Assembly: GCF_001375555.1 (NCBI RefSeq)
Contig: NZ_CTDZ01000009.1
Coordinates: 985,758-1,049,757, forward strand
Direction of reading: 5' to 3'
DNA: 64,000 bases
Source of the DNA: Numidum massiliense
GTDB lineage: Bacteria; Bacillota; Bacilli; Thermoactinomycetales; Novibacillaceae
This document shows, in pieces, positions 10,514 through 23,152 of the stretch. Position numbers and translations under genes: made by a program. The notes beneath the pieces were generated by a model. The model was not told where the DNA came from and made no database searches. It saw nothing but the letters and a program-made list of their open reading frames with translations. Position 1 is the first letter of the stretch. Each line of letters opens with the position of its first letter.

Positions 10514-12610
10514 TTGACCAGAGCGGCAAGACGAAGTACAACGCTCGTGCTCGCGGTGATCTTTTTGTTTGGAGTAGGTATTTCTACCGCGTATGCCGAC
10601 GTCCGCATCGCCGATCAGGCGGAGCTGTTCGACGATGAGACTGTCGAAGAGATAAGATCGAAATTATCATCTATAGATGTTGATTTTTACATATTAACGG
10701 TTAAGAGCACGAAGGGTGAAGACATCGACGAGATCGGTGTGCGCACCTTTCGAGAGCACGAGTTCAATGAAGGCGACGTCTTATTGACGATCGCTGTCAA
10801 AGAGCGCCAGGCGGATCTAATTGCTCCGTCAAAGATCGACGATCCGCAAAAAGTGCTCGAGGAGCACTTTTCGCCTCACGCTGAGAACGACGACTATGTG
10901 ACTGGCATCGTGAAAGTAGCGGAATACATTGACGAATATAATACTATTGGGGGTTACATTTTAGAAGGGATATTTGATTTCATATTATTATTAATTATTA
11001 ATGCGCCAGCAGTCCTCGCCATCGTCTTTATTATATTGCTTTTATTGCACCCTACTGGACAATCTTTGCTCCTCATTCTTTTTAGCCCGATTATTTGGGG
11101 TGTGCCAGCGATGATCCGCCGCGGGAAGATGAGAAAACAGCGCAACACCTTGCTCACGTCCAGTCGGGAAGCGTTAACAGACATTAACCGCTTAAAGCGG
11201 AAGGTCCAGAAACGCCTGGCGAAAAGTGACGGACAGACGGCGAAAGCACTCGCCAAAATCGAAAAGGAAGTCGCGCCGCTACAAGAAAAGCTGGGAACAC
11301 TTACGAAAGCGATCTTTGGAATGAAGATCCCGGTGCGAAAAAAAAAGAAACCGACCTTCGACAAGTTGCACAAAAAGTACAAGGCGGAATTAAAAAAGCA
11401 CCGCACGGCAATAAAAAAACAGACAGAGGCGTGGCAAAAAATCGTCAGCGCCGACAAAGCCGTGCGTACGACGACGGCACAGCTAGAGAAACAGTTAGCT
11501 GAAACGCGGCATAACTTTCAAGCTCTCCAGAACGACTTTTTATACACTTTTGAAAAACTTGCCCAGCGCGTCGAAGCGGTGCCGACAGCGCTCGCACAAG
11601 CTAACGCCTTGCAGACATCTGACCCGCTCACTGCACATAAACGGCTGAAAGATGTCGCGAAAATGTTGCAAGACATTTCCCAGTCGTTTGCGCTCGTTCC
11701 GGCTCACGAAGCGGCGCTCAACGAATGGGCGCAAAAGATCGCGCAGCAGCGCGAAGAGCTCGCCGCAATCGCAAAGCGCGAGAAGTTGCAACTTGTTGAC
11801 AGCGCGCCATTTGCCAACTTTGACCGTGCGCTTGAGCAGCTTAAGCCGTTAGCAGAGGCGATTCAAGCCGGCGATACGAAAGCGTCGCTCGCGACGTTGG
11901 AAGCCATCGACGCACGCGTCACCGATGCGTTTCGCCAAGTGGAGACTCTCGTTCGTTTGCGCGAGCAGAACCGTGATGCTTTAGGCGAAATTGAACAGAC
12001 GCTCTTCGCATATACGTCCGGCGTCGACGATGCGTTTACGGAAGTGATGCAGCGAACGGAAGCTTTATTCGTAGAAACTCATTGGCGACACGTGCCGGAG
12101 CTGTTTAAGCAAATGAAGCGAAAAACGGCCGACGTGCGGGAAATGTTGCTTCAAGTGAAACGGGCAAACGATCCGGACGTACAACAGTATAAAAAGGCAG
12201 AGGAACAAATTGTCGCGATGCGGGCGGCGCTTAAAGAAGCGGCCACACTTAAAGACGAATGTCTATCGATTTACGGGACGCTCATCGAGCGACGGGACAG
12301 CCTACAAATCGCGCGGGCAAACAGCCTACAGAAGTACCGCGCCGCACAGAAAAAACTCGACTCCGGCGGCATCTTGAGCAGCGGGATCCCGCAGCCGGAA
12401 AAACTAGCAGAAAAGAAAAAACTCATTCAATTGGGCAGCGAAGAGACTGAGGCGCTACTCGACACGGTACCGTACGACCTCGACACTGCAGAAGAGGCGG
12501 TACAGCGTCTCGCTTCCCGTGTGACCTCGTTCACAAAAGAAGCGAAACGGTTGACCGAGGCAAAGCAAAAGAGGCGAAAAAAAGAGTCAGAAGACGAACG
12601 AGAAGAGTGA
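10514..12610 (+). CDS. TPM-domain membrane protein with long coiled coil, paralogue 1
   Basis: 698 residues. A signal peptide (cleavage near AYA-D, residue 29) leads an extracytoplasmic TPM domain (about 30-140: VRIADQAELFDDE, FYILTV, GDVLLTIAVKERQ). Two hydrophobic segments follow (about 150-178 and 183-200). A very long charged coiled coil runs from about 205 to the end and should lie in the cytoplasm, a topology reminiscent of EzrA with an added outer domain. TPM proteins are often called phosphatases, but their role is mostly unknown. It is the first of three tandem paralogues and lacks the Ser/Gly/Trp tail and last helices of the other two, ending KRRKKESEDEREE. The TTG at 10514 follows GGGAGGGG by eight bases. 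Biological role not known. Confidence 0.75.
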   Translation: MTRAARRSTTLVLAVIFLFGVGISTAYADVRIADQAELFDDETVEEIRSKLSSIDVDFYILTVKSTKGEDIDEIGVRTFREHEFNEGDVLLTIAVKERQADLIAPSKIDDPQKVLEEHFSPHAENDDYVTGIVKVAEYIDEYNTIGGYILEGIFDFILLLIINAPAVLAIVFIILLLLHPTGQSLLLILFSPIIWGVPAMIRRGKMRKQRNTLLTSSREALTDINRLKRKVQKRLAKSDGQTAKALAKIEKEVAPLQEKLGTLTKAIFGMKIPVRKKKKPTFDKLHKKYKAELKKHRTAIKKQTEAWQKIVSADKAVRTTTAQLEKQLAETRHNFQALQNDFLYTFEKLAQRVEAVPTALAQANALQTSDPLTAHKRLKDVAKMLQDISQSFALVPAHEAALNEWAQKIAQQREELAAIAKREKLQLVDSAPFANFDRALEQLKPLAEAIQAGDTKASLATLEAIDARVTDAFRQVETLVRLREQNRDALGEIEQTLFAYTSGVDDAFTEVMQRTEALFVETHWRHVPELFKQMKRKTADVREMLLQVKRANDPDVQQYKKAEEQIVAMRAALKEAATLKDECLSIYGTLIERRDSLQIARANSLQKYRAAQKKLDSGGILSSGIPQPEKLAEKKKLIQLGSEETEALLDTVPYDLDTAEEAVQRLASRVTSFTKEAKRLTEAKQKRRKKESEDEREE

Positions 12611-12649
12611 GTAGAAGTAGAGTGAGTAGAAGTAGAATGAGTAGAAGTA
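12605..12649 (+). repeat. Three tandem 15-bp repeats between TPM paralogues 1 and 2
   Basis: Unit GAGTGAGTAGAAGTA at 12605-12619 and 12620-12634, with one change (GAATG) at 12635-12649. It starts at the last codons of paralogue 1, where paralogue 2 continues with more helix and a tail. Slippage here may have helped truncate paralogue 1. Confidence 0.8.
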
Positions 12650-12707
12650 GCATGCGCAAAAGAAATGTAGCTAGACCAATGAAAAGAAACGTGAGAGGGG
12701 GAGGGCG

Positions 12708-15095
12708 TTGACAGTTAACTTACGCCGCCTGACAACAGTCCTTATTTTTTTGTGTGTGTTGTTAAGCAGTACGACCGCGTTTGCCCACGTCGTCGTGGAA
12801 GATGCAGCCAAAATGTTCGACAAAGAGGACGTTGCGCATATTAAAGCTGAGTTGAAGAATAAAAAGTACAATTATTACATCGTGACGCTGAAACAGTTGA
12901 AAGGGGAAAACATCGACAGCGTCGGGAAGCGCATCGCGAGCAAAAAGCGGCTCGGCAAAAGCGACGTCTTACTGACACTGGCCAAAGAAGAGCGCGAGGT
13001 CAACTTAAACGTCCCGCCGGCGCTCGACATTAATCCGAAAAGCGTGCTCGACGAATATTTCGTGCCCCACGCGGCGGACGGCGACTTTGTTGCTGGCGTC
13101 GTCGATGTCGCTGCCTATTTACACGAACCGCCCGGCTTTTGGGGAAGAGCGTTAAAGTCGATCACAGAAATCGTAAAGGAAAATTTGTTCGTCGTTATCG
13201 CTTTAGCTTTTTTCACCCTTCCGGTCGTGTTCGTTGTTGTCTCCAAGTTTTTCAAACTTATTTTCAGCCCCGTTACGGGGACGATTGGCCTCTTTAAACG
13301 GCACCGTCTGGCGCGGCAGAAGCACGCGCAATTACTCGCTGCCAGCCGCGAGCAGTTGGCGAAAACAGGCCGCGCCAGCGACAAGCTGGCGAAACGTTTA
13401 ATTTACAGTGACGGGGAGACGAAAACGAAGCTCACCGATATCGAACAGCAACTGACACAGCTGCTGGAAAAAAACGTTGCACTAACGGAAGCGATCGCGA
13501 AGCTGTCGATCCCTTGGCGCAAAAAAAATCAAACGTTTGACAAACTGTATAAAAAGTACAATGAAAACTTGAAAAAGTTGCGCAAATCGTTAAAGAAACA
13601 GACGACCGCTTTGCAAAAAATTGTCGCCGTCGACGACGCCATCCGCCCGGCGATTGATCAGTCGGAGCAGCAGTTAGCACAGATCAAGCAAAGTTTTCGC
13701 GACTTGCGCGCCAACTATTTGTTCTCATTCGACAGTCTTGAACAGCGCATTCGCGCGGCACAAACGCTCATCGCTAAGGCCGATGACTTAGAAGAATTTG
13801 ACCCGCTCGCAGCTGAGAAGCCGCTCAAAGAAGTGGCTGGCATGTTGCAAGAAATTGAACAATCGCTGTCGCTCGTCACCGCCCACGAAACGGCGTACAC
13901 CACATTGCCGCAAAAAGTCGAGCAGCGGCGGGCACAAATTAGGGACATTGTGCAGCGTGAGCAGTTGAAACTCGTCGACATCGCGCCCTTTGCGAACATT
14001 TCCCGCGCCGAAGAGCAGTTACAATCACTGGAGCACTATATTCAAATTGGGGATACAAAAGCGTCGACCGATACATTGGAAAATATCGACTCCTTGCTCG
14101 AAGACGCGCTCGCCCAAGTACGGGACGTCATTCGCACGCGGGAGGCGAACGGCGCGGCGCTGCACGAAATCGAACAATCATTGACGACGTATTCACCGGC
14201 TGTCGACGCTGCGTTTGCGGAAGAGATACGGCGGGTAGAAGGTGTTTTTGCGGAAAAGCATTGGCGACACATCCCCGAGCAGTATGAACAAATGAAGCAA
14301 AAAGTAGAGGATGTTTACACCGCGTTACCTCCAGCGAAAACAGCGAACGATCCGGAAGTGCAAGAGTATAAGCAGGCGAAAGCACAAGTTACTGCGATGC
14401 AGACGGCACTCAAAGAAGCCGCGGAACTACAAGATCACTGTTTATCGCTTTACGGGATGCTCATGAAGCGGCGGGACGGCCTGCAAATCGCACGTGAAAA
14501 TACGTTGGCGAAATACCGCAAGGCGAAGAAAAGTTTGGAAGTTAACGACATCTCCCTCACGAAAAAATTAAAAGAGATGCAAACTGCAGTTGAAACGAGC
14601 GACGAAGAGGCAAAGTCATTACTTGCCGCCGTGCCGTACGACCTCGACGCCTCAGAAGAACAGCTAAAGCGACTCGAGCCGCACGTGGCAACGTTCGCGA
14701 AGGAAGCGAAACGGCTTACTGAGGAAAAGAAGAAGGTGGAAAAACAGTGGCGAGAGGCGCAAGCGAAATTTGCTAACGCGCGTACGCGTTACGGTAAAAA
14801 AATTAAACTTAAGACATATACGGCGAAGTATAACGCGCTCGACAAAGAGATTGCGGCGTTCATTAAAGCTGTCTCGTTCAAAAAGGCGGCCGACAAGGTG
14901 AAGGAGATGAAGAAGCTAGCCAGTGAGATGAAAAAAGCGTACAACCGCGTCCTCGAAGCGGAGCGCAGGGCAGAAGAGCGCAAACGCGAACGGTACGAAT
15001 ACTCTAGTAGTAGTCGCAGTAGCGGCAGTTCGTCTTGGGGCGGGAGCAGTAGCAGCTCGTCGTACGACCGCAACAGCGGTAGCTCTTCATGGTAG
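12708..15095 (+). CDS. TPM-domain membrane protein with long coiled coil, paralogue 2
   Basis: 795 residues. Signal peptide to about AFA-H (26), TPM domain about 27-140 (VVVEDAAKMFDKED, YYIVTLKQLKGENIDSVG, SDVLLTLAKEEREV), membrane segment about 158-180, then a coiled coil to about 760. Shared blocks with paralogue 1 (FDKL.KKY...LKK, FANF/ISRAEEQL, KHWRH.PE....MK) show that the genes arose by duplication. The C-terminus is a low-complexity Ser/Gly/Trp tail (SSSRSSGSSSWGG ending in SSSW), a feature of many TPM proteins. The TTG at 12708 lies just after a purine-rich GGGGGAGGG. It probably forms an operon with paralogue 1, 97 bp upstream. Confidence 0.75.
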   Translation: MTVNLRRLTTVLIFLCVLLSSTTAFAHVVVEDAAKMFDKEDVAHIKAELKNKKYNYYIVTLKQLKGENIDSVGKRIASKKRLGKSDVLLTLAKEEREVNLNVPPALDINPKSVLDEYFVPHAADGDFVAGVVDVAAYLHEPPGFWGRALKSITEIVKENLFVVIALAFFTLPVVFVVVSKFFKLIFSPVTGTIGLFKRHRLARQKHAQLLAASREQLAKTGRASDKLAKRLIYSDGETKTKLTDIEQQLTQLLEKNVALTEAIAKLSIPWRKKNQTFDKLYKKYNENLKKLRKSLKKQTTALQKIVAVDDAIRPAIDQSEQQLAQIKQSFRDLRANYLFSFDSLEQRIRAAQTLIAKADDLEEFDPLAAEKPLKEVAGMLQEIEQSLSLVTAHETAYTTLPQKVEQRRAQIRDIVQREQLKLVDIAPFANISRAEEQLQSLEHYIQIGDTKASTDTLENIDSLLEDALAQVRDVIRTREANGAALHEIEQSLTTYSPAVDAAFAEEIRRVEGVFAEKHWRHIPEQYEQMKQKVEDVYTALPPAKTANDPEVQEYKQAKAQVTAMQTALKEAAELQDHCLSLYGMLMKRRDGLQIARENTLAKYRKAKKSLEVNDISLTKKLKEMQTAVETSDEEAKSLLAAVPYDLDASEEQLKRLEPHVATFAKEAKRLTEEKKKVEKQWREAQAKFANARTRYGKKIKLKTYTAKYNALDKEIAAFIKAVSFKKAADKVKEMKKLASEMKKAYNRVLEAERRAEERKRERYEYSSSSRSSGSSSWGGSSSSSSYDRNSGSSSW

Positions 15096-15326
15096 CCCCG
15101 TGACACAAACGCTCGCTTAGAAACCCATTGATACGGACGGATCCTCATCAAATAGAGTGGAGATTCCTCACAGTAGATCTGTGGGCCTATGGTCAGTTGT
15201 TTAACAATCTTGTGAGCGAAGAAACTTTATTGTCGCTCGCGCGTATTAAACGGTAGGGTCTTGCGAAGGGTTGTGCGCTATTTGTTACATACAACTCGCT
15301 TTACGCAGACGAAGGGAGATCTTACG

Positions 15327-17801
15327 TTGTTAAAAAAATCTATCGTCGGGCTTTTGTGCGCACTCATTTTTTTCATAAGCGCGCCGGTCGTCTTCGCCGA
15401 TGCGATTGTATCCGACTCCGCGAATATATTTTCCGTCGCCGACGTCGAGCGCATGACGAAACAATTGGCCGATCAAACGTACAATTTCCACGTCGTTACC
15501 GTCCGCAGTTTGGACGGGGAAGCGATCGAGGACGTTTCTGACAGGCTGTTAACGCAAAAGAGGCTCGGGAAAAAAGATATATTACTTACGATTGCCGCCG
15601 ATGAGCGGGAAGTGTTTTTGGAAGTACCACGTGGTTCGGCATTGGATCGGGCGATTACTGAGCCAATACGGTCGCTGTTAGATGACTTTTTTATCCTTTA
15701 TGCGGCTGATGGAGATTTTGCCGGCGGCGTGTTGGCGTTGGCTGATCATTTGTTAGCACGTGATGCCGAACAGGCGAAGGAACATAAAAAGGCGCACGCA
15801 CCGCCAGCCTCTGACCCCGGCCATTCCACAGCTGCTGCGGCAGAAAGCATAGACGTTGAGGACAGTGGGTGGATCGGCGGCTTAATTGCGCTACTAGTCA
15901 TCGCGGCCCCGGTTGTCTTCTTTTTGCGGCGCAAAGCGCGCACGAGCCATCGACGGGTTGTCGTTTTAAGTGAAAATCTGCTCAAATCGATCGCTGCGGC
16001 GATGGAACAATTAAACGAGTACTTGCCGTACAGTCAAGGGACGACAGGCGAGATGTTGCAAGAAGTGGAGCAATCGCTCAACGAGCTAATTCAACAGGCG
16101 AATGACCTAGAGCAGCAAATTTTAGCCGTTAAGCTGCCGCGATTTGGTATGAACAAAAAGCTCAAACAGCAGTTAAAGCAGCAGTATGCGCACATTAAAA
16201 CGCTCGGAGAGCAGCTGACGAAAAATAAGGAAACAATCACTCGCGTCGCCGAAGTCGATCGACAGATGAAACAGTCGTTACAAACGGCTAGGGCGCGCTG
16301 GGAGCAGGTTACAGCTCAATTTAAAAAACTGTGTGGCGATTACATGTTTTCATTCGCCCATTTGCGGGAGCAAATCGACGAGATTGGCGTGCTCATCGAA
16401 ACGTCCGACGACTTAGAGGAGTTTGACCCGATCGAAGCAAAGAAGGACTTAGACGAAGGGGTGCAAATTCTCGAGCGCGTCGAACAGTCGATGCAGCTCG
16501 TCCAACAACACATTGACGTATATGCGGCGCTGCCGGAAAAAATCGCAAGCAGACAACGGCAAATCGACGCGATCGTCACGGACGAAAACTTGAAACTCGT
16601 CGATACAGACCCTTATAAAAATTTCGCGCAAGGGAATGAGCTGTTAGCCGAGATGCATCAAGCGATCAAGTTGGGGCGCACCGACGCGTCGACCAAAGCA
16701 CTCAACGACATTGACGCATTGCTCGAAGACGCCCTCGATCAAGTGCGGGAGTTAATCGAGATTAGGGACGGCAACCGAAAAAACATTCACACGCTCGAGG
16801 AAGGATTAGAGACTTATACGGCGCGTTTAGACGAAGCGTTCGCGCGCGCCTTGCAGCGGGCGGAAATGTCCTTCCCGGAAAAACATTGGCGTCACTTGCC
16901 GCGCGACTTTGCCGCGATGCAACAAAAAATAGAGACGATCCGTGCGGAGTTGCCGGAAGTTAAGACGATGAACGACGATGGCGTGCAGGAGTACAAACGC
17001 GCTCAACCGCAAATCGACACCTTACTTTCCTTACTCGCGGAAGCTGACGAGACGAAGAATGCATGCCTCGACGTATTCGAACGACTCATGGCGCAGAGGG
17101 CTGCCCTCGCCGACCGCCTGCGCAGCCTAGATAACGAGAACGTTAAACTGAGGACGAGTTTGGAGCATCATCGCATCCCGTTAACCGACTCGTTACACGA
17201 CGCGTATTCCCGCATACAGGTGTGTATAGCGACCGTTTACGAGCTGCTCGACAAGGAGCCGTACGCGCTCGACTTCATCGACGGCGAGTTACGGGACCTC
17301 GATGCGCGCGTTAAAGCGTTCGCCCGCGATGTCGAGCAAACGATTGCGAGGAAGCGAGAGGTAGAGCGGTTATTCAGGGATGCGCAATCGGATTTTTCAC
17401 GCAGTCATACCCGCTATGAGCGGCTCATAAGTACGTCACATTACCGGCGTCAGTTTCGCGATTCCGGTAGTGAGGTCGAGCGGCTGATCGCCCGCGGCTT
17501 ATTTGTGGAAGCTGCCGCGCAAATTACCGGTTTACGGCGCCTCATGGAGGAAATGGCTCACGACTACAGGCGTGCCCGCGATGCGGAAGAAGAGCAAATG
17601 CGACGGCGAGCAGCGGCGCGTCAGAACAGTGATAACGATTCGTTTTGGGGCGGTCGGTCGTCGTGGGGTGGCGGTCACCGCAGGGGCGACTCCTCGTGGG
17701 GCGGCGGACACCGGGGCGGACGTTCGTCGTGGGGCGGCGGACAGCGTAGTCGTAGTCACCGCGGGAGCGGGTCGCGGTGGGGAGGTAGCGGGAATTTATA
17801 G
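15327..17801 (+). CDS. TPM-domain membrane protein with long coiled coil, paralogue 3 (C-terminally cut by an amber codon)
   Basis: 824 residues as read. Signal peptide near VFA-D, TPM domain (IVSDSANIFSVADVERM, HVVTVRSLDGEAIEDVS, KKDILLTIAADEREV), a linker (EHKKAHAPPASD), one membrane segment (WIGGLIALLVIAAPVVFFL) and a coiled coil. It ends in Arg/Gly/Ser/Trp repeats (SSWGGGHR type). The TAG at 17799-17801 falls inside a 69-bp repeat whose next copy has TCG at the same place. Reading through gives 46 more codons ending GGGSKW at 17939, a terminal Trp like that of paralogue 2. The TTG at 15327 is preferred (GGGAG eight bases upstream, next to the signal peptide); an in-frame start at 15261 lacks a good site. 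Confidence 0.75.
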   Translation: MLKKSIVGLLCALIFFISAPVVFADAIVSDSANIFSVADVERMTKQLADQTYNFHVVTVRSLDGEAIEDVSDRLLTQKRLGKKDILLTIAADEREVFLEVPRGSALDRAITEPIRSLLDDFFILYAADGDFAGGVLALADHLLARDAEQAKEHKKAHAPPASDPGHSTAAAAESIDVEDSGWIGGLIALLVIAAPVVFFLRRKARTSHRRVVVLSENLLKSIAAAMEQLNEYLPYSQGTTGEMLQEVEQSLNELIQQANDLEQQILAVKLPRFGMNKKLKQQLKQQYAHIKTLGEQLTKNKETITRVAEVDRQMKQSLQTARARWEQVTAQFKKLCGDYMFSFAHLREQIDEIGVLIETSDDLEEFDPIEAKKDLDEGVQILERVEQSMQLVQQHIDVYAALPEKIASRQRQIDAIVTDENLKLVDTDPYKNFAQGNELLAEMHQAIKLGRTDASTKALNDIDALLEDALDQVRELIEIRDGNRKNIHTLEEGLETYTARLDEAFARALQRAEMSFPEKHWRHLPRDFAAMQQKIETIRAELPEVKTMNDDGVQEYKRAQPQIDTLLSLLAEADETKNACLDVFERLMAQRAALADRLRSLDNENVKLRTSLEHHRIPLTDSLHDAYSRIQVCIATVYELLDKEPYALDFIDGELRDLDARVKAFARDVEQTIARKREVERLFRDAQSDFSRSHTRYERLISTSHYRRQFRDSGSEVERLIARGLFVEAAAQITGLRRLMEEMAHDYRRARDAEEEQMRRRAAARQNSDNDSFWGGRSSWGGGHRRGDSSWGGGHRGGRSSWGGGQRSRSHRGSGSRWGGSGNL

Positions 17802-17888
17802 CGGCGCGGAAGCGGATGTCGTAGTCACCGCGGAAGTGGGTCGTCGTGGGGAGGTAGCGGGAATTCATCGCGGCGCGGAAGCGGATCG
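17751..17888 (+). repeat. 69-bp tandem repeat coding for a Gly/Ser/Trp/Arg-rich tail
   Basis: Two copies with a 69-bp period (CGTAGTCACCGCGG starts at 17751 and 17820), or 23 codons each. At matching positions copy 1 has AATTTATAG and copy 2 has AATTCATCG, so two base changes turned Ser-Ser into Leu-stop. The region is the end of the third TPM paralogue. Confidence 0.8.
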
Positions 17889-17939
17889 TCCCGGCGCGGC
17901 GGGGGCTCCTCTCACCGCGGTGGCGGAAGCAAGTGGTAA
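17802..17939 (+). pseudogene. In-frame 3' remnant of TPM paralogue 3 beyond the amber codon
   Basis: Reading on from the TAG in the same frame gives 45 sense codons and a TAA at 17937-17939: RRGSGCRSHRGSGSSWGGSGN..., ending GGGSKW. Composition and terminal Trp match the tails of the TPM family. It is either dead sequence after a recent nonsense change or is translated by readthrough. Confidence 0.6.
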
Positions 17940-18021
17940 CCCTTTAGATGAGGCGACTTGGGCGACAAGCGTCGTTTAGTGACAAAAACAGATCAAACGG
18001 GAAGAAGGAGAGAAATCATTC

Positions 18022-19434
18022 GTGGAAATAACGAATCACCCGAACAACCATAGGGAAGTGAGCTTGCCGAGCGGGCAATTGCACGTGTTTGCCAACGACG
18101 AAGTGTTTGACTCACTCGGAGAGCGCGTCTTCGCGATGGCGGAGAACAATTTGCGCATTCCGCGCAATCGGTATATGAGCTACACGCCGGACGCGCACGT
18201 CGGCATCGGCACGTGTATCGGCACGACAGCCGTGTGGGAGATGAAGGACGGTTTCGTCTCGCCGTCGATCGTCGGCGTCGACATCGGGTGCGGTATGCGC
18301 GTCCACCTGACGAACGTGCACAAAGACGACTTGCGCGATAAGTCGCTAAAGAGAAGTATCATCGAGGCGATTGAACGGTACGTGCCGACGAATGAACGCG
18401 TCAACTCGCACTATGCGGACATTGCGCTGGAAGACGTCGTCACGGACGGCATCGAAGGGCTCCCGAAGCAATACGTCGAAGATTACCGCTCGGTGACCCA
18501 CGTCGAACAGGCGAAGTTTAAGTTCGACACAACACAACTCGAACATTTGCGGCGCAAAATATGGCGGACCGCGCACGGGCAGCTAGGGACACTCGGCGGC
18601 GGGAACCACTTTATCGAAGTGCAACACCTCGCGATCGATGAAGGGAAGCGCGACGTCGCGGAGCAGTGGGGCTTGTTCGACGGACAAGTCGTCGTCATGA
18701 TTCACAGTGGCAGCCGTGCCTGGGGAGCGATGTTGGGTCAAGTGTACACGAAAAGTATTAAACAGGCGATGTACAATTGGGGCGTGCAAACTGCTGATCC
18801 AAACCTCGTGTATGCCCCGATTAATAGCCCGGAAGGGCAGCAGTACTTGCACTTAATGCACTCGGCCTTAAACTTTGCCGTTGTGAACCGGCACATGATC
18901 GCTTACGGTGTGCAGGAAGGGTTTCGCGACGTATTCGGGAGCGATTTTGTCATGCCGGTGCTGTACGACCTCATGCACAATTACGCGTTAACCGAATTTC
19001 ACCAAAACAAAGGCATGCTCGTCCACCGCAAAGGCGCGACAAAAGCACTGCCGCGGAAGCACTTTGCCAATCCAGTGCCGTATAAAAATACCGGTCACCC
19101 GGCGCTCATTCCCGGCAGTATGGGGACGTCGTCATACATTATGGTTGGAGAAAAACAAGGAGCGAAAAACTACTACTCAATCTGCCACGGCGCCGGTCGC
19201 GTGCGTTCGCGGCGAGCGACGAAGGAACTCGTCAGTGTGGACGAATTTTCCAGCGCGCTCAAGGTCGGCGAGGAAGATGAAATATTAGTGAACCACCGCA
19301 CGCTCAATAAAATTCTCGACGAGTGCCCGCAGGCGTACAAAGACGTGGACCAAGTGATCGACAGCGTCGTCGGTGCTGGCTTAGCTTCGGTCGTCGCTAA
19401 ATGCCACCCAATGATGGTCGTTAAAGGGGTGTGA
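18022..19434 (+). CDS. rtcB: RtcB family RNA ligase
   Basis: 470 residues, full length for the family. Metal and GTP-site motifs are present: GVDIGCGM (Asp87, Cys90), GGGNHFIE (His196), HSGSR (His228), HRKGATKALP, PGSMGTSSY and CHGAGRVRSRRA, with His389 as the likely guanylylated residue. RtcB joins RNA 2',3'-cyclic phosphate ends to 5'-OH ends using GTP and Mn(II), acting in RNA repair. No archease or RtcA gene is nearby. The GTG at 18022 has AAGGAG about 11 bases upstream. It lies 83 bp after the TPM triplet on the same strand with no terminator between, so co-transcription is possible. Confidence 0.93.
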   Translation: MEITNHPNNHREVSLPSGQLHVFANDEVFDSLGERVFAMAENNLRIPRNRYMSYTPDAHVGIGTCIGTTAVWEMKDGFVSPSIVGVDIGCGMRVHLTNVHKDDLRDKSLKRSIIEAIERYVPTNERVNSHYADIALEDVVTDGIEGLPKQYVEDYRSVTHVEQAKFKFDTTQLEHLRRKIWRTAHGQLGTLGGGNHFIEVQHLAIDEGKRDVAEQWGLFDGQVVVMIHSGSRAWGAMLGQVYTKSIKQAMYNWGVQTADPNLVYAPINSPEGQQYLHLMHSALNFAVVNRHMIAYGVQEGFRDVFGSDFVMPVLYDLMHNYALTEFHQNKGMLVHRKGATKALPRKHFANPVPYKNTGHPALIPGSMGTSSYIMVGEKQGAKNYYSICHGAGRVRSRRATKELVSVDEFSSALKVGEEDEILVNHRTLNKILDECPQAYKDVDQVIDSVVGAGLASVVAKCHPMMVVKGV

Positions 19435-20177: not shown

Positions 20178-20456
20178 GTGGAGTGGATTTATGAAACGTT
20201 GGATCGTTTTTGGCTCGCCTACGCTGTCATTTTTATTTTGACAGGCATTGTATACAAAGTCGCGTTTGCGCGGCGCTTACCCGTGTTAAAAGCACTGATC
20301 ATATATTTATTTCTCGCTGCCGGCTGTTATCTTTTTACAATTATGCACTTTTTGCGCTTCCCCGTCGTACTCGCGCTGGCAGGGACCGTCGTGCTAATCA
20401 TCATTGCCCGCTTACGCATGACCGCTACAAACCGCAAGCGCGAAGACGCATCATAA
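20178..20456 (+). CDS. ylaH: YlaH-like membrane protein
   Basis: 92 residues with about three membrane segments (residues 13-27, 38-53 and 58-78). The block YKVAFARRLPVLKALIIY is typical of the YlaH family of Bacillales; its function is unknown. The GTG at 20178 has AGAGGAG at good distance. Its neighbours here (a YlaL-like gene and ylaJ) come from the same B. subtilis region, although ylaI and typA are absent. Confidence 0.75.
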   Translation: MEWIYETLDRFWLAYAVIFILTGIVYKVAFARRLPVLKALIIYLFLAAGCYLFTIMHFLRFPVVLALAGTVVLIIIARLRMTATNRKREDAS

Positions 20457-20501
20457 TTTTCTGCTGCTTTATATTTCCAATTGTGTAAGGGGGGACGGAC
20501 C

Positions 20502-20774
20502 GTGCGTATGGAAGATGCGCTGTTTAACTGGTTACAAATACATATCGTGGCGAAAGCGCGTCCAGAAGACAGGGCGGCACAAGAGACGGCTGATTTTTTT
20601 TACGAGATTGTAAGCGAAGACCATTTGCTGAAAGAACTCACTTACGAGGTGGACGATACGTCGTACACCGTCAAGTACACGCTTGACGGGACGTCGCATG
20701 GCAAGCGCTTTGATCGGATCGCGGTAGAACAGTTGTTGCGGCAGATCGAATCTGAACCACGCTACAACCAGTAG
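20502..20774 (+). CDS. YlaL-like small protein
   Basis: 90 residues: MEDALFNWLQIHIVAKARPEDRAAQETADFFYEIVSEDH at the N-terminus, then a beta-rich part (YEVDDTSYTVKYTLDG) and a C-terminal helix (VEQLLRQIESEPRY). It is soluble and acidic. It resembles B. subtilis YlaL as far as I can recall, and the genomic context agrees; function unknown. The GTG at 20502 is seven bases after AGGGGGG. A terminator follows at 20903-20931. Confidence 0.65.
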   Translation: MRMEDALFNWLQIHIVAKARPEDRAAQETADFFYEIVSEDHLLKELTYEVDDTSYTVKYTLDGTSHGKRFDRIAVEQLLRQIESEPRYNQ

Positions 20775-21531: not shown

Positions 21532-21730
21532 TGTACACCTTTCCTTCCTTTCCGTAAGTCGTTTCGTTACGATAGTGTAACCGCCCCTAGTGCACATCAT
21601 GCGCGTGTTTTTGTTTTCAATAACAAAATCGAATCTACCAAAATGGGGGTTATGTGTTGAATTTTAGTAGGCTGTATGTCATGATAGACTCATATATACA
21701 TAAAACTTGGGGAATGGAGGAATTGTACGT

Positions 21731-23152
21731 TTGCGAAAAAAACTACTACCGATCGTCCTGTCTGGCGCATTGACGTTGACACTGGCGCTGCCGCCGTACA
21801 CGGCCCATGCGAATGCAGACATTGACTTGCAAATCTCGGAACTGCGGGAGAAAATTAGGCAGGGAGAGGGAAAGCAAGTTGAAGCGCAGAAGAAGTTAGA
21901 CGAAAACCGAAGCAAACAAGAGGCGGAGAAGCAAGAGCTTTCGCGCATAGAAGGCGAATTGAAGAAGACGAAAGAAAAAATTCGCGAATTAAACGATAAG
22001 ATTTCTAAGACTGAGAAGAATTTGGAAAAGGCGAAGCGCGACTTAGCGGCGGCAAAAAAACGCGTCGCCGAGCGCGAGCAGTTTTTGAACGAACGCGTGC
22101 GGCTCATTTACGAAAAAGGGGAAGTCTCTTATTTAGAAGTGTTGCTGCAATCGACAAGTTTTAGCGATTTTTTAGCGCGATTTGAAGCGTTACGCGCCGT
22201 TTCAGAACAAGATTACCAGATGTTAGAAGATAACCGGCGCGATCATGAAAAAATTAAAACGGCAAAAGCTAAAATCGAAAAGTCGTTAGTCGCTTTAGGC
22301 GAATTGCGTAAAGAAGTGAAGGCGGAACGCAGTATACTCGCCAAACAAGAAAAAGAGCACCAAGCGACGCTCGCTTCCTTGCAGAAAGAAGGGCGACACC
22401 TCGATCATATGAATGCTCAAGAAGCTGCGGCGATGAGCCAGCTAGTCGATCAACTGGCTAAGGCGGAAGCGGCGAAAGCAGAGTGGCAACAGCGCGAAGA
22501 GCAGCGCAAACGCGAAGAGGCCGAACAAAAGCGGCAAGAAGCTGAGCGGCAAAAACGTGGGGCTGAACAGCCGCAACAACAAGAACAGCAACAAGATAAA
22601 CAGGAGCAACCACAGCAGGAGCAACAGCAGCAACCACAGCAAGAGCAACAGCAGCCGAACAAAAAAGTGGCGAAGAACCCACCGGCTAACCCGCCTCAAC
22701 AAGCGCCGTCCAAACCTGCGCCGTCAAAACCAGCTCCGGCACCAGCTCCGGCACCGAAGCCGAGCCCACCAGCGGGAGGACAGTTTGGTTGGGCAGTGCC
22801 GGGATACCACCACGTCAGTTCGGGATTTGGCTGGCGTTGGGGAGCACCGCACAATGGGATTGACATTCCCGCGCCGATCGGTACGCCGATCGTAGCGATT
22901 GCCGACGGTACAGTGACGGCAGCGGGACCGGCGAGCGGTTTCGGCAACTGGGTTGTCATTTACCACGGTAACGGCTACTCAAGTGTGTACGGGCATATGA
23001 GGGGTTCATCGATCAAAGTGCGCGCCGGCCAGCGCGTCTCGCGCGGGCAACATATCGCCGGTGTCGGGAACGAAGGGTTTTCGACCGGGCCGCACTTACA
23101 CTTGGAGATTCACCAAAACGGTAGGCCTCTTAACCCCATGCGGTTCTATTAA
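21731..23152 (+). CDS. M23 family peptidoglycan hydrolase with N-terminal coiled coil (PcsB/EnvC-like)
   Basis: About 473 residues. Signal peptide (cut near AHA-N), then a long coiled coil (about 30-255; QISELREKIRQGEGKQVEAQKK, FLNERVRLIYEKGEVSYLEVLLQSTSFSDFL as in CwlO/PcsB/EnvC proteins). A Gln/Pro/Ala-rich linker precedes the C-terminal M23 (LytM) domain. Its zinc-site motifs are complete: HNGIDIPAPIGTPI (His, Asp) and GPHLHLEIH (His-x-His), with SVYGHM before it. It is a secreted endopeptidase acting on cell-wall cross-links. The TTG at 21731 is ten bases after GGAGG; a TTG at 21707 lacks a site. The linker is rich in CAG/CAA repeats. Confidence 0.9.
   Translation: MRKKLLPIVLSGALTLTLALPPYTAHANADIDLQISELREKIRQGEGKQVEAQKKLDENRSKQEAEKQELSRIEGELKKTKEKIRELNDKISKTEKNLEKAKRDLAAAKKRVAEREQFLNERVRLIYEKGEVSYLEVLLQSTSFSDFLARFEALRAVSEQDYQMLEDNRRDHEKIKTAKAKIEKSLVALGELRKEVKAERSILAKQEKEHQATLASLQKEGRHLDHMNAQEAAAMSQLVDQLAKAEAAKAEWQQREEQRKREEAEQKRQEAERQKRGAEQPQQQEQQQDKQEQPQQEQQQQPQQEQQQPNKKVAKNPPANPPQQAPSKPAPSKPAPAPAPAPKPSPPAGGQFGWAVPGYHHVSSGFGWRWGAPHNGIDIPAPIGTPIVAIADGTVTAAGPASGFGNWVVIYHGNGYSSVYGHMRGSSIKVRAGQRVSRGQHIAGVGNEGFSTGPHLHLEIHQNGRPLNPMRFY

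Follow-up and report, generated by a model that had tools for sequence, protein, structure and literature searches.

Three tandem TPM proteins of Numidum massiliense with a probable EzrA-type rod

What is the long cytoplasmic coil that some bacterial TPM proteins carry behind their membrane segment, and are such proteins tied to RNA repair when the ligase gene rtcB lies next to them? Both questions are raised by a 64,000-nt stretch of the Numidum massiliense genome (assembly GCF_001375555.1, contig NZ_CTDZ01000009.1, positions 985,758 to 1,049,757), which was analyzed as a whole and is hereafter called the window. It harbors three consecutive genes for TPM proteins with long coiled coils, followed on the same strand by rtcB. 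A preliminary description made from the sequence alone had recognized the shared design of the three, likened their topology to that of EzrA and proposed a coupling to RNA repair. The genes, which we labeled tpmA, tpmB and tpmC for this analysis, and the parts of their products are the following (positions in the window; aa, amino acids; E, E-value).

10514-12610, + strand: tpmA, 698 aa, TTG start; signal peptide, TPM domain, membrane segment, EzrA-like rod
10610-10936, + strand: TPM domain of TpmA, residues 33-141 (Pfam PF04536, E 1.9e-10)
12708-15095, + strand: tpmB, 795 aa, TTG start; design as tpmA plus a Ser/Gly/Trp tail ending in SGSSSW
12795-13115, + strand: TPM domain of TpmB, residues 30-136 (PF04536, E 3.7e-10)
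13185-13241, + strand: membrane segment of TpmB, residues 160-178 (hydropathy scan), followed by basic residues
13314-14930, + strand: probable EzrA-type spectrin-like rod of TpmB, residues 203-741 (VIA-align of the predicted model to 4UXV)
14988-15092, + strand: Ser/Gly/Trp tail of TpmB, residues 761-795 (low model confidence)
15327-17801, + strand: tpmC, 824 aa from TTG 15327; the open reading frame opens earlier, at TTG 15261
15408-15752, + strand: TPM domain of TpmC (PF04536, E 9.7e-14)
15939-17555, + strand: probable EzrA-type rod of TpmC, residues 205-743 (VIA-align of the predicted model to 4UXV)

All three proteins exceeded the Pfam TPM cut-off (40.3-51.9 vs. 22.1 bits) and shared 45% (TpmA/TpmB), 35% (TpmB/TpmC) or 27% (TpmA/TpmC) pairwise identity, bearing out the earlier view of three tandem paralogues of one TPM design. 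The lengths first given (698, 795 and 824 or more residues) hold for the first two, and the third protein comes to 824 aa from TTG 15327, which a GGGAGA ribosome-binding site precedes. As described before, two of the three (TpmB and TpmC) end in a Ser/Gly/Trp tail; TpmA additionally lacks the C-terminal hairpin. Hydropathy scans revealed two hydrophobic segments per protein, the signal peptide and one past the TPM domain, the latter being long in TpmA, where it could represent more than one pass. Because strongly basic residues lie behind the membrane segment in all three, the TPM domain is predicted to face outward and the rod to lie in the cytoplasm. Of this architecture, in which a membrane segment joins an extracytoplasmic TPM domain to a rod, we are nearly certain. 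No further TPM genes were found in this genome. In a tree of rods, the triplet formed one branch (100/99) apart from the other relatives sampled, with tpmA and tpmB as the closer pair, and therefore appears to have arisen by duplication within this lineage.

To place these proteins, 398 genomes of the class were searched, and since the two, three or seven best candidates per genome were scored, the class B and EzrA counts from these searches are lower bounds. A five-protein alignment of the triplet with L016 and L017, relatives that occur as single copies in the same order, found matches in at least 87 of the 398 genomes (two candidates per genome), many of them short TPM proteins. Full-length relatives fell into two classes: class A, consisting of a TPM domain plus a full EzrA, and class B, which includes TpmA, TpmB and TpmC. 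Pfam EzrA matched every class A protein scanned (25/25; E 4e-46 to 9e-130) and Pfam TPM 18 of the 25, while a TPM profile derived from class B matched the outer domain of 11/11 class A proteins at E ≤4e-13, reversed copies reaching no better than 0.04. In many Bacilli, the ezrA gene proper thus codes for a fusion of TPM and EzrA (class A loci L083:7532-9784, L134, L138 and others). EzrA frames of ~735-910 aa were the rule in nine sampled families (f7, f17, f18, f24, f25, f27, f28, f29 and f32), although f17 also had two shorter frames (567 and 637 aa); canonical EzrA frames span ~565-632 aa. Reduced class B copies were encountered as well: L069:7611-9857 is split into two frames (genome G374), L062:7844-9847 lacks the TPM domain (G327) and L073:7362-9359 is short and without tail (G287). 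The set of 25 class B proteins contains neither these three nor L088, whose rod is short; L062, L069 and L073 do belong to the 25 loci used for the class B neighborhood count.

The case for an EzrA-type rod rests on the agreement of profile-profile comparison, decoys and two predicted structures. The combined rods of the triplet, L016 and L017 matched class A at 99.6% (E 3e-24) and canonical EzrA at 96.8% (E 2.4e-10), vs. 86% (E 5e-6) and 4% (E 0.009) for the same rods reversed; canonical EzrA rows had been thinned to 15 of 30 for these and the decoy tests, and to 10 of 30 for the rod tree. An EzrA profile devoid of class B rows assigned more than 20 bits to 23/25 class B rods, including 53, 66 and 38 bits to the triplet. 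The same profile placed 1/25 reversed, 0/200 heptad-shuffled and 3/200 block-shuffled decoys above 20 bits, the best of them at 22.2. Searched against all sequences in the PDB, the profile of the triplet, L016 and L017 retrieved two TPM structures and then EzrA (4UXV; E 6e-5 over 455 residues), with short viral coiled-coil matches ranking behind at 0.004 and weaker. L016 and L017 themselves exceed the Pfam EzrA cut-off (E 7e-12 and 6e-14), the match being collinear over ~400 positions.

AlphaFold models of TpmB and TpmC were built from alignments containing neither canonical nor class A EzrA. Over nearly its full length, B. subtilis EzrA (4UXV) was superimposed by VIA-align on the TpmB model (Z 15.4, 503/522 residues, root-mean-square deviation (rmsd) 15.3) and on the TpmC model (Z 15.3, 506/522 residues, rmsd 10.4), the large deviations being consistent with a rod bent differently along its length. 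On the S. aureus EzrA fragment 4UY3, the models scored Z 12.3 (TpmB; rmsd 2.7) and 12.6 (TpmC; rmsd 2.5). As judged by these alignments, both predicted models correspond to the EzrA rod of five triple-helical repeats and a C-terminal bundle, the last part being absent from TpmA. The TPM fold was recovered likewise (TpmB model vs. 5ANP, Z 15.4; TpmC model vs. 7TBR, Z 15.5). All other VIA-align matches stayed at Z ≤11.6, save for TPM structures and a designed 98-residue three-helix bundle, two entries of which reached 13.5 and 12.9 with the TpmC model. The resemblance to EzrA first proposed thus extends beyond topology, and we consider homology of the rod to EzrA very probable.

What might such a protein do? 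We read class B as a transmembrane membrane-stress scaffold that is not a Z-ring factor and in which rtcB takes no part, a reading to which, taken whole, we give about an even chance. That class B stands apart from the Z-ring is, on its own, probable; that it forms a stress scaffold linked to PspA is plausible, at chances just short of even. On this proposal, class B would not join the Z-ring via FtsA. The TPM domain would meet the wall side and the rod would arch over the inner membrane face, as has been proposed for EzrA (PMC5354558). The tail would dock partners, with the PspA repair machinery as the likeliest candidate, comparable to the anchoring of PspA by YdjH in B. subtilis. Given that TpmA lacks hairpin and tail, the triplet may yield long and short versions that assemble together, a guess from anatomy.

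The PspA link is suggested by neighborhood and co-occurrence. Among 37 related loci, pspA adjoins class B in L016, L017 and L055, as well as the short, truncated-rod relative L088. PspA was found in 25/25 genomes with class B vs. 184/373 others in a hand tally not corrected for kinship (G287, G374 and G215 are included in the 25, a class B fragment in G190 is left out). Within family f2, where class B is confined to genus g3, PspA occurred in 2/2 genomes with and 1/8 without class B. In B. subtilis, two-hybrid tests showed binding of the TPM protein YdjH to PspA and YdjI; without YdjH, PspA is delocalized and, under alkali stress, cell shape and wall synthesis are disturbed (PMC8581546). From these PspA neighbors, the co-occurrence and the published YdjH work, the envelope-stress or membrane scaffold of the preliminary description is plausible as a proposal. 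As a separate observation, a pspA gene is directly followed and overlapped on its own strand by L088:7605-9520, which encodes a 412-aa TPM protein with a short rod stretch and a Gly/Ser/Trp tail. This protein may represent loss of the rod or a state before its gain.

Several results weigh against this reading, some of them concerning the proposed role. pspA is absent from the window and stands beside few class B loci only, and the bulk of the class B genomes belongs to two families in which PspA is common. (The two pspA genes of this genome lie elsewhere: at L026:5677-10498, in a cluster that by eye resembles liaIH-liaF-liaSR, and at L027:6239-6946, on another contig.) Moreover, of 15 class B genomes inspected for EzrA, ten showed no other EzrA-type gene at E 1e-5, namely that of the window, G002, G019 and seven further ones (the ten being G000, G002, G019, G085, G099, G205, G327, G342, G366 and G390), so that a division role is possible. 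The triplet might then stand in for EzrA as scaffolds of the divisome, with rods that bind FtsZ or penicillin-binding proteins and TPM domains that read the septal wall; as class A demonstrates, a genuine EzrA can carry a TPM domain. We nevertheless regard replacement as unlikely. In the other five class B genomes (G079, G104, G164, G277 and G333), an EzrA of class A is present as well. Of the 42 genomes of the window's order, 3 contain the family and 39 have neither the family nor an EzrA above the cut-off (12 of the 39 have a weaker EzrA, E ≤0.001), and EzrA therefore seems dispensable in this order. The neighborhood differs, too: a RefZ-like TetR or HisJ-like gene lies near 8/11 class A loci vs. 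0/25 class B loci and is absent from the window, and it was seen beside 11/30 canonical EzrA genes, whose flanks spanned only 1.5 kb. RefZ and HisJ are the names we take to apply to these TetR and PHP-domain protein neighbors, and the B. subtilis gene order is likewise assumed. Finally, a QNR-like motif (NR[YF]R) is present in 30/30 canonical EzrA and 10/11 class A proteins but in 0/25 of class B, TpmA, TpmB and TpmC among these; further counts from partly overlapping genomes gave 14/15 long and 7/8 short EzrA proteins, the short miss being a fragment. The QNR motif binds FtsA and determines the midcell placement of EzrA (PMC12288466). The classes also differ at the C-terminus, class A being without the Ser/Gly/Trp tail and 23/25 class B proteins ending in Trp or Phe (the exceptions are TpmA, which has no tail, and TpmC, which stops before an aromatic end is reached). 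A G-x-T motif near the membrane was considered as a family mark and discarded: the reversed control was useless, as the Gly/Ser-rich tail fills it, and only 8/11 class A proteins had the motif.

The remaining points against our reading of class B as a stress scaffold concern the rod, and several of them would fit a long coiled coil of the usual kind, whose likeness to EzrA is convergent and which serves TPM membrane proteins as a spacer. None of TpmA, TpmB and TpmC reaches the Pfam EzrA (PF06160) cut-off of 39.6 bits: profile positions 10-493 of 557 match tpmA at 11090-12559 with 26.9 bits (E 1e-6), and TpmB scores 26.1 bits (E 3e-6). The Pfam protein scan at E 1 returned no EzrA match in TpmC and reported none for TpmA; among five class B relatives scanned, one was above the cut-off, two below and two without match. 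NCBIfam models of SMC provided the best match for TpmC (1.6e-6) and TpmA (0.002), and EzrA drew level with SMC for TpmB. Long coiled coils are known to yield spurious profile matches, and PMC3695513 lists the EzrA Pfam model among the coiled-coil families prone to overlaps, which is why the reversed and shuffled controls were run. Even so, the reversed class B rods taken together still matched class A at 89% (E 2e-6), and two class B rods scored low with the EzrA profile (L056, 17.8 bits; L077, 0.7 bits). At the structural level, helical bundles readily reach middling Z, and EzrA was not among the best 50 Foldseek matches. Against convergence stand the reversed and shuffled decoys, the collinearity of matches over ~500 residues, and the fact that, at top Z, each of the two separately predicted models has EzrA as its sole long match; we consider convergence very unlikely.

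There remains the gene downstream, whose surroundings include a repeat at the end of tpmC.

17737-17886, + strand: 69-bp tandem repeat where tpmC encodes its tail; TAG stop within the first copy
18022-19434, + strand: rtcB, RNA ligase (Pfam PF01139, E 1e-119)

An envelope-stress scaffold coupled to RNA repair by co-transcription with rtcB had been suggested in the preliminary description. Both genes lie on the same strand, and a scan detected no terminator-like site between tpmC and rtcB, although promoter and terminator scans performed no better than on shuffled sequence. The association is not conserved, however. rtcB was found in 0/37 related loci of all types, most of them covered with ~8 kb on each side, and among the loci seen it adjoins TPM-rod genes only at this site, so the survey of genomes that had been called for speaks against the link. 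Of 21 genomes, 20 from the order plus that of the window, 9 have rtcB. It was not found in G019, which has a TPM-rod protein, nor in the sister genome G001; in G002, rtcB and the TPM gene are on different contigs. The upstream ferredoxin oxidoreductase pair and the small downstream genes keep their order in G001, and a DUF1054 gene and others lie between them. Because of the 37 loci without rtcB, its absence from G019, the separate contigs in G002 and the different genes at the G001 site, the proposed link falls; we judge rtcB an unrelated chance neighbor of the triplet, and a functional coupling extremely improbable. The variable stretch in G001 (L179:8325-11429) extends from the ferredoxin oxidoreductase pair to the counterparts of window positions 20178-20774. 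Further downstream, at 21707-23152, the window encodes a secreted coiled-coil protein with, by eye, an M23-type peptidase-like end, a similar gene being present in G001.

The distance to rtcB also depends on where tpmC ends. Its stop is an in-frame TAG (17799-17801) inside the 69-bp tandem repeat, past which the frame stays open for 45 further codons to a TAA (17937-17939) and would end in GGGSKW, a type of ending also seen in several relatives. Either a real truncation or an assembly error is possible. The 83-bp gap between tpmC and rtcB reported previously was counted from the later TAA and amounts to 220 bp from the TAG.

How TPM domain and rod came together can be approached from both trees, each of which carries long-branch and composition warnings. 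Rod sequences placed canonical EzrA within a grade of TPM-bearing class A proteins, with L083 as its sister (99/96) and class B outside (100/100); this tree is unrooted. With the root between class B and the rest, where midpoint rooting places it, an ancestral TPM-EzrA would have lost its outer domain once; a root inside canonical EzrA would imply one TPM gain instead. In the TPM tree, class A and class B lie on opposite sides of a 98/97 branch, against a single origin; class B clusters with short TPM proteins that have a tail, class A with three that lack one. Constraining classes A and B together gave a borderline p-AU of 0.053 (approximately unbiased test), or 0.035 with three short relatives added, which leans against a single origin as well. 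Because of the TPM tree and these tests, two separate TPM-rod fusions are possible, which counts against the reading that follows. Tentatively, and at rather less than even chances, EzrA may descend from a transmembrane receptor: the TPM-EzrA form would be the older one, canonical EzrA would have lost the outer domain once, and class B would be a sister branch kept for stress. If true, one scaffold family once linked the state of the outer wall to division and membrane repair inside.

TPM proteins that have a long coiled coil and a link to PspA are already known. The EzrA-type nature of this coil appears to be new, as does the TPM domain in the ezrA product of many Bacilli. The accessible part of Ravi et al. 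does not name EzrA, and we found no published description of a TPM-EzrA fusion or of the EzrA nature of class B in a search that left most subscription literature outside. The findings suggest that the division scaffold EzrA has relatives able to feel the cell exterior, and via a common TPM module the family would connect the PspA stress response with the fold of EzrA. They also suggest that ezrA of some Bacilli is misread if taken as the textbook 560-residue protein (L078 is an example). An easily made wrong association, that with rtcB, is corrected.

Compared with known systems, class B shares with EzrA (PF06160; 4UXV) one membrane segment, behind which lies a spectrin-like rod of ~540 residues, with the same predicted fold over ~505/522 residues. 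EzrA differs in having no outer domain or tail, in its QNR motif and in often having refZ/hisJ-type neighbors, whereas in class B a TPM domain lies outside, QNR is missing, a Ser/Gly/Trp tail is usual and the neighbors are others. Class A shows the same order of TPM domain, membrane segment and EzrA rod but, unlike class B, a full-strength EzrA match, the QNR-like motif (10/11) and a RefZ- or HisJ-like gene nearby (8/11), and no Ser/Gly/Trp tail. The TPM structures BA41 (5ANP), 7TBR, Psb32 (8C7I) and AtTLP18.3 (3PVH) resemble the outer domain in fold (Z 12.8-15.5); they are TPM-domain proteins whose titles, the basis of this comparison, do not mention EzrA. The short TPM proteins retrieved here (~215-435 aa) could not accommodate a full rod. 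YdjH, encoded by pspA-ydjGHI in B. subtilis, resembles class B in its outer TPM domain, membrane segment, glycine-rich tail and recurrent PspA neighbor.

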